A stretch of 64,000 nucleotides of DNA, taken from positions 310,001 to 374,000 of the forward strand of contig MTMD02000002.1 of assembly GCA_002010065.2 (NCBI GenBank), given 5' to 3'. Below the pieces are notes generated by a model, which was not told the DNA's origin, searched no databases, and saw only the letters and a list, made by a program, of their open reading frames with translations. Source of the DNA: Candidatus Pyrohabitans jungbluthii (lineage in GTDB: Archaea > Hydrothermarchaeota > Hydrothermarchaeia > Hydrothermarchaeales > BMS3B). A program made the position numbers and the translations under genes. Positions 59,003 to 62,635 of this stretch are shown piece after piece; the stretch's first letter is position 1, and each line of letters begins with the position of its first letter.

Positions 59003-60949
59003 ATGGGACAAAAAGTGCAAATGCAGCAGGATTCGACTGACATTGCTCTCTTCGTTAAGGTCAGTGAGGGCGATGTGATAACCTGGGATAAAAGCAGGAT
59101 TGTGAAGTCACTGCTCAAGGAAACCACGATAGATGAGGCTACCGCACACCTAATCGCCGACAGGGTTGAGAGGATTATCCGCGACTCTGGTATTGAGTTC
59201 ATCACAGGTCCGCTAATCCGCGAGATCGTTAACGCTGAACTCATAAAGCTCAAGCTTGAGGAGCAGCGCAAGCAGTACACCCGCCTTGGTATGCCAATCT
59301 ACGACGTTGAACAGCTCATAACAAAGCAGAACAAGGAAAATGCCAACGTGCCTCATGGGCCAGAAGCGACCAACCTGAGCTTAGCCGAGAGTATAAAGAA
59401 GCAGTACGCTCTGCTAAAGGTGTTCTCACCCGACGTGGCACTCGCCCATGAGCGGGGCGATATTCACCTGCACGACTTAGGGTTTATAGACCGCCCTTAC
59501 TGCTCAGGTAATAGCATCGAGTACGTGAAGAAGTTCGGTCTCAACCTGCCCAACGCTCTTTCAATTTCAAAGCCAGCGAAGCATCCCGAGGTGCTGGTTC
59601 TCCACCTCATAAAGTTCTCAGCCGCCCTGCAGGGCGTGTTCGCGGGTGCAATAGGCTGGGATGCGGTGAACCTCTTCATGGCACCCTACTTCGTGGGGAA
59701 GTCGGACGAGGAGCTGGAGCAGGTCGCGCAGATGCTGGTCTTTGAGTTCGCCCAGCAGGCGGTTGCCAGAGGGGGACAGAGCATATTCAGCGATCTCAAC
59801 CTCTACTGGGAGGTGCCAAAGCACTTCGCCGACGTCGAAGCTATTGGCCCTGAGGGCAAGTACACGGGCAACACCTATGAGGATTACCTGCCCGAGGCGC
59901 AGCGCTTCGCGAGGGCTTTGATAAAGGTGTACATGCAGGGCGACGGCATGGGCAGGCCCTTCTTCTTCCCAAAGCCCCAGCTCCACATAACTGAACGCCT
60001 CTTCCGCACCGAGGGCTACGAGGAGTTTCTGTACGAGATAGCCCAGCTCTCCTCTGAGCGGGGCAACAGCTATTACGTGTTCGACCGCGGCGAAACCGCG
60101 AAGATTAGTGAGTGCTGCCGCCTTGCGTTCAAGCTGGATGAGAATGACCTGCGCGATGCCAAGACGCCCTGGAAGATGCGCTATTCTGCAATGCAGAATG
60201 TGACAATAAACCTGCCTCGCATTGCCTACGAGGCGAATGGCAACGACGACCTGCTGTTTGAGATTCTCTCGCAGAGAATGAAGCTCGCAGCCGAGGCGCA
60301 CGTTGCCAAGCGTGGCTTCATAACCAGGCTTCTTAACCTAGGGCTTCGCGGACCCCTCGGTTTGCTTGCCATGGATAAAGACGGCGAGCCCTACTACCGC
60401 CTGCACCGCGCCACCTTCCTCATGGGAATGCTGGGCTTGAATGAGCTGGTGCAGTACCACCTGGGCGAGGAGATGCACGAGAGCAATTATGCCCTTCGCT
60501 TTGGCTTGAAGGTCATAGCCCACATGAACAAGGAAAGTGAGCGCCTGAGCGAGGAGTACGATATGCGCTTCGTGCTGGAGCAGACTCCAGCGGAGAGCAC
60601 CGCTTACCGCATGGCAAAGCTCGACTTGGAGCACTATCCCAGCGAGACGCGAGAGGTGGTGAAGGGTAGCATAGAGCGCGGCGAGGTCTACTATACCAAC
60701 TCCACCTACCTGAACATCTCCGCACCAATATCGCCAATAGAGCGGGTTAAGAAGGAAGGGATGTTCCATCCCATGATTCACGCTGGCAGCCTCACCCACA
60801 TCTGGCTGGGCGAGGCGAAGCCTGACCCTGAAGCAATAGCCAAGTTCGTAGTGCGCACCTTCAAGCACACCACCAACGATCAGATAGCCTTCTCCCCCGA
60901 GTTCTCCTCATGTTTAGACTGTGGGCGGGTAGATCGCGGGCTGTGGTAG
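59003..60949 (+). CDS. nrdD: Anaerobic (class III) ribonucleotide reductase, catalytic chain lacking the glycyl-radical domain
   Basis: 648 residues. Reduces ribonucleoside triphosphates with a thiyl radical. An ATP-cone regulatory domain occupies about residues 10-95 (VITWDKSRIVKSLLKETTID), then the ten-stranded barrel (LAHERGDIHLHDLGFIDRPY, FPKPQLHITERLFRTEGYEE, KISECCRLAFKLDENDLRDA, EQTPAESTAYRMAKLD). The chain stops after SSCLDCGRVDRGLW. In known NrdD the same polypeptide continues with a second Cys pair and the RVxG radical loop; here those are encoded by the next gene. So it is a split enzyme. A GGGGGA element precedes the ATG. Confidence 0.93.
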   Translation: MGQKVQMQQDSTDIALFVKVSEGDVITWDKSRIVKSLLKETTIDEATAHLIADRVERIIRDSGIEFITGPLIREIVNAELIKLKLEEQRKQYTRLGMPIYDVEQLITKQNKENANVPHGPEATNLSLAESIKKQYALLKVFSPDVALAHERGDIHLHDLGFIDRPYCSGNSIEYVKKFGLNLPNALSISKPAKHPEVLVLHLIKFSAALQGVFAGAIGWDAVNLFMAPYFVGKSDEELEQVAQMLVFEFAQQAVARGGQSIFSDLNLYWEVPKHFADVEAIGPEGKYTGNTYEDYLPEAQRFARALIKVYMQGDGMGRPFFFPKPQLHITERLFRTEGYEEFLYEIAQLSSERGNSYYVFDRGETAKISECCRLAFKLDENDLRDAKTPWKMRYSAMQNVTINLPRIAYEANGNDDLLFEILSQRMKLAAEAHVAKRGFITRLLNLGLRGPLGLLAMDKDGEPYYRLHRATFLMGMLGLNELVQYHLGEEMHESNYALRFGLKVIAHMNKESERLSEEYDMRFVLEQTPAESTAYRMAKLDLEHYPSETREVVKGSIERGEVYYTNSTYLNISAPISPIERVKKEGMFHPMIHAGSLTHIWLGEAKPDPEAIAKFVVRTFKHTTNDQIAFSPEFSSCLDCGRVDRGLW

Positions 60950-60966
60950 AACAGGAGGTGAAAGAA

Positions 60967-61437
60967 ATGGAAGAAGACATAATAAGCAACACGTGCCCCC
61001 ACTGTGGAAGCCACAACGTGGAGTACATAACCCGCGTAACTGGCTTCTTCTCTAAGGTGGGGAGCTGGAATAAGGGCAAGATAGCCGAACTCCGTGACAG
61101 GAGGCAGGCTATAGAGTGGAACAAGCGAAGCTTTCTGGGCAACGCTGGAAGCGTGCCTACCACGGCGACGCAGCGCAGGATAAAGCTCTTCTGGAAGCAG
61201 AACTGCCCGCGCTGCCCTGCTGCCAAGGAGCTTGCTGCAAAGCTGGAGGCGAAGGGTATTAAGGTGGAGTACTACGACGTGGAGAGCGTCGAGGGTATGG
61301 CAGAGGCAGGAATGCACTCTGTATTAGCGACGCCGAGCATCGTCGTGGTTGACGGCGAGGATGAAGAGATCGCCGCGTGGCGTGGCTCCGTGCCCAGCGA
61401 GCAGGAGCTTGCCGCGGCGGTGATGGGTGCAAACTAA
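60967..61437 (+). CDS. Glycyl-radical subunit of split NrdD fused to a redoxin domain
   Basis: 156 residues, ATG with strong AGGAGGTGAAAG upstream, in a different frame from nrdD, 17 bases after its stop. Residues 8-45 equal the missing NrdD C-terminus: TCPHCGSHNVEYITRVTGFF with the likely radical Gly26, then SWNKGKIAELRDR. Residues about 70-156 form a glutaredoxin/thioredoxin-like domain with C80-P-R-C83 (LFWKQNCPRCPAAKELA) and the cis-Pro loop ATPSIVVVDG. The Cys pair C10/C13 should complete the zinc ribbon with C637/C640 of the large chain. The fused redoxin suggests NrdD2-like, redoxin-driven reduction. Confidence 0.9.
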   Translation: MEEDIISNTCPHCGSHNVEYITRVTGFFSKVGSWNKGKIAELRDRRQAIEWNKRSFLGNAGSVPTTATQRRIKLFWKQNCPRCPAAKELAAKLEAKGIKVEYYDVESVEGMAEAGMHSVLATPSIVVVDGEDEEIAAWRGSVPSEQELAAAVMGAN

Positions 61438-61470: not shown

Positions 61471-61908
61471 GTGGGATATGGAGCAATAAAAGTTGAGGAC
61501 ATAGAAATAATTAAAAAAATACTCCTACGCGAGGGGTTTTATGAGCCTATATTACAAACATGGAAAGATGGTCAAGTATTTGGCTTAGTTAAACCTTTAA
61601 ATGAACTGTTTGAAGTACATATACGAGCTTATGAAGATAACACCCTTGATGCAGAAGTGGAGTTATCTAGAGAATATTTAGAACATATTTTTAATGAAAG
61701 TAGGCCATATTATGGATTTTTAATTGAAATACTAAGAGATTATAAGGTACCATACAGAGTTATAAAATCGATCCCTCCAGATCCAAAGCTCATCTCAGTA
61801 CCAGAGATATTAATCAAATGGAAGCCACTAATGGCACTAGCTGTGATATTCGTTGGAATTGCTTTAATTGGAACATCAAATAAGCAAAATAATGGCATAT
61901 CTGTTTAA
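61471..61908 (+). CDS. AT-rich hypothetical protein with C-terminal membrane helix
   Basis: 145 residues, GTG start with TTTGGAGG 8 bases upstream. Codons such as aaa, tta, att and aga dominate, unlike the GC-richer neighbours on both sides. The soluble part is alpha/beta (LREGFYEPILQTWKDGQVFG, LFEVHIRAYEDNTLDAEVEL, YYGFLIEILRDYKVPYRVIK), and the end has a membrane helix (LMALAVIFVGIALIGTS). The family is not recognised. It sits between the reductase genes and their activase, which suggests a recent insertion. Confidence 0.65.
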   Translation: MGYGAIKVEDIEIIKKILLREGFYEPILQTWKDGQVFGLVKPLNELFEVHIRAYEDNTLDAEVELSREYLEHIFNESRPYYGFLIEILRDYKVPYRVIKSIPPDPKLISVPEILIKWKPLMALAVIFVGIALIGTSNKQNNGISV

Positions 61909-61927
61909 ATTAAAAAGAGGCATAAAA

Positions 61928-62635
61928 ATGCAAATCAAAGGCGTGCTCGAGACGAGCTTTGTAGACTGGGACGGGAAGATAGTCTCCACCATCTTCCTCC
62001 CCAGCTGCAACTTCCGCTGTGGCTTCTGCCATAACCACAAGCTGGTACTCAGCCCTGAGAGCTTTGAGGATGTGCCCTTAGACTATCTCCTTCGCTTCTG
62101 GCGGCGCAACCGCGATTTCCTCGACGGGGTGTGCATAACCGGTGGCGAGCCTACGCTGCACAAGGATTTACCCCAGCTATGTGCCACGATTAAGGAGCTT
62201 GGGTTGGAGGTGAAGCTGGATACGAACGGCTCCAACCCGGAGATGCTGCGCTCGCTTATCAAAGAAAAGCTTGTTGACTACATCGCCATGGATGTTAAGG
62301 CACCTCTGCGCGCCAAGGATTATTCCCGCGTGGCTGGCGTGGATATAAATGGCGAGCTTCGCCGCATAGAAAAGAGCATCGACATTATAATAACCTCCCG
62401 CATCGACCACGAGTTCCGCACCACTGTGATTAAGGGTGTGCACGGCGAGGATGAGGTCGAAGCTATAGCGCGCTCTTTGCAGGGTGCGAAGCGCTACGTG
62501 CTCCAGAAGTTTGTGCCTCACCTGGCGATGAGCGAAGAGCTTCGCAGGCTGGCGATGTTCAGCGATGAGGAGATGGATGCCCTGGTAGAGGCGGCGAGAC
62601 GGTATGTTCCTAATGTGAAGTGGAGGGGGAAGTGA
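61928..62635 (+). CDS. nrdG: Anaerobic ribonucleotide reductase activase (NrdG-like radical SAM)
   Basis: 235 residues from ATG 61928. The radical SAM motif CNFRCGFCHNHKLVL (C-x3-C-x2-C) and the VCITGGEPTLHKDL loop mark the activase; LDTNGSNPEMLRSLI and YIAMDVKAPLRAKDYSRVAG are shared with NrdG2/pyruvate-formate-lyase-activase relatives. It would abstract the hydrogen from Gly26 of the radical subunit. Composition is host-like, in contrast to the AT-rich gene before it. Confidence 0.88.
   Translation: MQIKGVLETSFVDWDGKIVSTIFLPSCNFRCGFCHNHKLVLSPESFEDVPLDYLLRFWRRNRDFLDGVCITGGEPTLHKDLPQLCATIKELGLEVKLDTNGSNPEMLRSLIKEKLVDYIAMDVKAPLRAKDYSRVAGVDINGELRRIEKSIDIIITSRIDHEFRTTVIKGVHGEDEVEAIARSLQGAKRYVLQKFVPHLAMSEELRRLAMFSDEEMDALVEAARRYVPNVKWRGK

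Follow-up and report, generated by a model that had tools for sequence, protein, structure and literature searches.

Can an anaerobic ribonucleotide reductase (RNR), the oxygen-sensitive enzyme that makes DNA building blocks, be assembled from two separately encoded chains, with the radical-bearing glycine on a small protein of its own? This question is raised by a locus of the deep-sea archaeon Candidatus Pyrohabitans jungbluthii (assembly GCA_002010065.2), located on a stretch of 64,000 nucleotides (contig MTMD02000002.1, positions 310,001 to 374,000, hereafter the window; all features of the locus lie on its forward strand) within a genome of 1.99 Mb. The class III RNR gene nrdD (59003–60949) encodes a barrel chain of 648 amino acids without a glycyl radical domain, which is 98% identical to NrdD of Candidatus Pyrohabitans sp. 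JdFR-17. It ends in SSCLDCGRVDRGLW, with its last residues SCLDCGRVDRGLW followed by a TAG stop codon (60947–60949). Seventeen bases on, and 5 bases after the Shine-Dalgarno sequence GGAGGTGA (60954–60961), an ATG at 60967 opens a protein of 156 amino acids (60967–61437), which consists of a glycyl radical domain (about residues 8–47), a linker of about 20 residues and a thioredoxin/glutaredoxin-fold domain (about residues 70–150). As the frame of the radical protein is open back to 60832, the assignment of its start to 60967 rests on the Shine-Dalgarno sequence and on conservation. The stop codon falls between the two Cys pairs of one zinc ribbon: the codons for CLDC (Cys637 and Cys640; 60911–60922) belong to the first chain and those for CPHC (Cys10 and Cys13; 60994–61005) to the second, which also encodes the predicted radical glycine Gly26 in the loop RVTGFF (GGC codon, 61042–61044) and the predicted redox-active cysteines CPRC of the redoxin (residues 80–83; 61204–61215). 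Downstream lie a 145-amino-acid protein of unknown function with a hydrophobic C-terminus and no family match (61471–61908), and nrdG (61925–62635; start uncertain, as the frame is open from 61868), which encodes the radical SAM activase with the CxxxCxxC-type cluster motif CNFRCGFC.

Profile searches divide cleanly between the two chains. The barrel matches the Pfam family NRDD (PF13597, E 9e-125) from position 1 to 517 of 562 and exceeds the cut-off of TIGR02487 (371.9 over 326.35 bits), whereas the small protein matches NRDD positions 522–560, followed by Thioredoxin_3 (E 5.5e-10) and Glutaredoxin, in agreement with NCBIfam. NrdG is assigned to the NrdG2 type by TIGR02495 (205.9 bits over a cut-off of 131.15). 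A PDB search aligned residues 8–47 of the small protein to the C-terminus of Prevotella copri NrdD (8p23), with RVTG placed on RITG. The initial annotation, which had described this arrangement from the sequence alone, is therefore confirmed.

A one-base insertion or deletion near 60940–60960 would join the two frames, so that a sequencing or assembly error in an ordinary fused NrdD–redoxin gene had to be considered. However, this explanation is practically excluded, since all nine congeners and family members, independently assembled and 60–96% identical in the small protein, keep the split with different spacings and frames. In four loci of the window type (L032, L036, L040 and L172) the two open reading frames (ORFs) are in the same frame with an in-frame stop, and in loci L041 and L043 the start lies 226 and 125 bases beyond the stop, with small extra ORFs of unknown function in between (about 40 amino acids in L043). 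Across 36 split loci, comprising the window type and others, every radical ORF is preceded by a Shine-Dalgarno sequence of at least five matching bases, the frame relative to the barrel is scattered (0/+1/+2 in 12/10/14 cases), and the distance from stop to start ranges from -26 to +226 bases. The short gap in the window and the existence of fused relatives might also point to programmed frameshifting or stop readthrough yielding one fused protein, but the same data make this very unlikely. In addition, in genome G318, a single contig of 2.0 Mb, the barrel (profile positions 1–510, spread over a 1704-amino-acid frame that probably holds inteins) and the only radical domain are about 90 kb apart, and in genomes G135 and G096 the two genes are located on different contigs.

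Both chains appear to be functional. Between the window and its relatives, dN/dS is 0.03–0.07 for the barrel, 0.02–0.11 for the radical domain and 0.05–0.25 for the redoxin, indicating purifying selection. The expected catalytic residues, which are inferred from alignment, are all kept: the strand-A Cys167 (RPYC), the finger loop Glu370-Cys371-Cys372-Arg373 and Glu526, which aligns with Glu495 of Thermotoga maritima; the strand-A and finger-loop cysteines are over 90% conserved in an alignment of 79 rows. A finger loop without Met in combination with this Glu is the signature tied to thioredoxin-only enzymes (PMC9669993). The CPRC motif of the redoxin is conserved, with CSRC in one relative. 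An alternative is that NrdD is decaying and inactive and that a class II RNR does the work, as the genome also encodes a class II RNR-like protein (contig C15, 38867–40258; PF02867, 725-amino-acid frame; several relatives have much longer frames with broken matches, suggesting inteins). We consider this unlikely in view of the selection data, the complete set of residues, the retention of nrdG next door and the maintenance of the split across families and beyond; moreover, one relative (G018, 90% complete) has the split enzyme but no class I/II match. The window's genome provides a contrast in a second, degenerate NrdD-like protein (contig C5, 46003–47505), which has lost both the finger-loop Cys pair and the radical domain. 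Such paralogues occur across Hydrothermarchaeota, in one of which (L132) the zinc ribbon remains but the loop reads NKIGYSS, and are possibly nucleotide-sensing pseudoenzymes.

Based on these findings, we propose with good confidence, although without biochemical evidence, that the locus encodes a two-chain class III RNR of the thioredoxin-dependent type, in which (i) NrdG installs the radical on Gly26 of the second chain; (ii) the two chains meet by sharing one zinc ion, bound by two Cys from each; (iii) the radical loop inserts into the barrel, where it generates the thiyl radical on Cys371 or Cys372; (iv) the disulfide formed between Cys167 and the finger loop on each turnover is reduced by the attached redoxin, which the detachable radical domain can carry in as it swings out. 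Known structures require the whole C-terminal domain to move for activation (PMC4493059), and we infer that a redoxin on this moving piece would be well placed. A detachable radical subunit would also be replaceable after oxygen cleaves it at the glycine. A composite of the relative L036, read through its stop codon, was modelled with a pLDDT of 84 (80–90 in the radical domain) and a pTM of 0.84, and its best PDB matches in a Foldseek search are class III RNRs, followed by thioredoxins. Since this model was made on a single chain, from an alignment dominated by fused homologues, it shows compatibility rather than binding; an earlier model based on 38 rows instead of 79 left the radical domain at a pLDDT of 45–68 and was not used for that domain.

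That the redoxin is the electron donor remains an inference. It could instead sense the redox state, protect the glycyl radical or dock the second chain while electrons come from elsewhere, given that many NrdD enzymes with double-Cys finger loops use formate or free redoxins and that the linker is only about 20 residues long. We regard this as possible but doubtful, as the finger loop lacks the Met linked to formate use, the Glu linked to thioredoxin use is present, and the redoxin is the operon's own redoxin in fused relatives. Redoxin fusions to RNR subunits, NrdD included, have been published, such as Grx-NrdB of Facklamia ignava, in which the redoxin fused to a class I RNR radical subunit was shown to be the reductant, and grx::nrdD in Lachnospiraceae TWA4 (PMC6187632). 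In these cases the fusion is N-terminal to a whole subunit, whereas here it is located on a detached radical domain.

The evolutionary history of the arrangement can be partly reconstructed. Fused single-chain relatives (Thermoplasmata, Methanomassiliicoccales, Deltaproteobacteria and others) read SCLDCGKTxRGLxxxCPYC...RVTGFF in one frame, and many possess the operon nrdD-redoxin-nrdG. Other Hydrothermarchaeota and a few archaea nearby (loci L040–L044, L046 and L172) have a barrel, a standalone radical peptide of about 45–60 amino acids and a separate redoxin. In the genomes searched, only the window's family has the radical peptide and the redoxin in one protein, and this family is one clade in the barrel tree (SH-aLRT 99). 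Thus, an ancestrally fused enzyme was split, and the radical domain was subsequently joined to the neighbouring redoxin, an old gene of the nrdD-nrdG operon. One fused sequence (L045, 3968–6088) lies inside the split group, with a longer linker between the Cys pairs (CGKREDSLQAVHRGLLDRCP), and may be a re-fusion, although the tree does not settle this. ORFs similar to the 145-amino-acid protein upstream of nrdG are found in L036–L038, but not in L032. The initial annotation had inferred an obligate two-chain enzyme with a built-in electron donor that looked like a new form of RNR, and had named relatives with a single fused NrdD and no redoxin domain as evidence that would refute it. Its core inference of two chains, a shared zinc ribbon and a redoxin on the radical chain withstood all our analyses. 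Fused single-chain relatives do exist, but they are more distant and do not undo the split in this clade; in addition, the split is not unique, and in view of the class II RNR-like gene, "obligate" applies to the enzyme and is not shown for the cell.

Reviews describe the class III storage radical as a glycine within the enzyme chain (PMC4390871). The thioredoxin-dependent NrdD enzymes of Neisseria bacilliformis and T. maritima share with the window's enzyme the barrel family, the double-Cys finger loop without Met, the Glu at T. maritima position 495, the zinc ribbon and radical loop motifs and the NrdG activase, but known enzymes carry the zinc ribbon and the radical glycine on the same chain. 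Spare radical domains have been validated only for pyruvate formate-lyase (PFL), for which YfiD/GrcA and T4 Y06I are small separate proteins that replace a damaged part of an intact enzyme; predicted wider use among other glycyl radical enzymes has been called tempting speculation (PMC8683613). By analogy, the radical–redoxin protein could chiefly be a repair part used after oxygen damage, as NrdD-type radical domains elsewhere stand alone beside an intact NrdD. For the window's family, whose domain is of the NrdD and not the PFL type, this is unlikely, since the barrel always lacks its own radical loop, a profile search found a single radical domain in the window's genome, and no intact NrdD exists for it to repair; replaceability after damage could be a second role. 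In the split class II RNR NrdJa/NrdJb of Pseudomonas aeruginosa (PMC9669993; Crona 2015), the barrel and its zinc-finger C-terminal part are also on separate chains, but this enzyme uses adenosylcobalamin, has neither glycyl radical nor redoxin, and its break does not run through the zinc site. The nrdD genes of Jug phages are interrupted by introns and rejoined by RNA splicing (PMC12363816), whereas here there is no insert and each part has its own start. A table of nanoarchaeal split genes lists no NrdD (PMC3655853). To our knowledge, based on a literature search that did not cover most subscription papers, a class III RNR with its radical domain in trans has not been reported. Annotation pipelines have no family for the detached domain and consequently miss half of the enzyme.

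The detached radical domain is a wider, recurrent pattern. A profile of the radical domain detected it in 210 of 394 archaeal genomes, and in at least 32 of the 394 a barrel lacking the domain could be paired with a detached one; short radical-domain frames at contig ends (six loci) were set aside as uninformative. The break points differ: between the two Cys pairs (the window type and, separately, L177, L179, L180 and L195), between the third and fourth zinc-ligand positions (L183, L185, L191, L194, L196, L198 and L202, with barrels ending ...HGY..G.H..CP), just after the ribbon (L193, L200, L318 and L319) or before it (L317 and the viral L297). Six genomes of the Desulfobacterota sample (L323–L328) show the third-to-fourth-ligand type. 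A single clade for all split rows is rejected (AU p 7e-97), but one for the window-type rows is not (p 0.13), so that we claim several origins overall, though not within that group.

Detached NrdD-type domains also occur beside an intact NrdD (genomes G116, G209, G220, G254 and G337). One family (f55) shows both states, as G116 has an intact NrdD plus a spare domain, whereas G135 and G096 have a barrel cut right after the zinc ribbon plus the same type of spare, which suggests how a spare part becomes a subunit. We hypothesise, and consider somewhat more likely than not, that class III RNRs have repeatedly become multi-subunit enzymes, in which NrdD-type radical domains acted in trans first as spare parts beside intact NrdD, also carried by viruses, and then as obligate subunits, and that in Pyrohabitans-like archaea the radical subunit has become a combined radical-and-electron-delivery cartridge. 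In five loci (L186, L187, L190, L193 and L200) the radical domain is fused behind a small Cys-rich domain (CxxC...CSxxC, TRASH-like by eye), being a spare beside intact NrdD in some genomes and the only copy beside a shortened NrdD in others. Finally, 24 viral contigs carry a detached NrdD-type domain, many with a different N-terminal domain of about 70 amino acids, and 22 of them have no barrel match on the same, possibly partial, contig; a tblastn search of a viral-type detached domain against the phage collection found nothing. These are possible viral repair parts for the host class III RNR, parallel to T4 Y06I for PFL.
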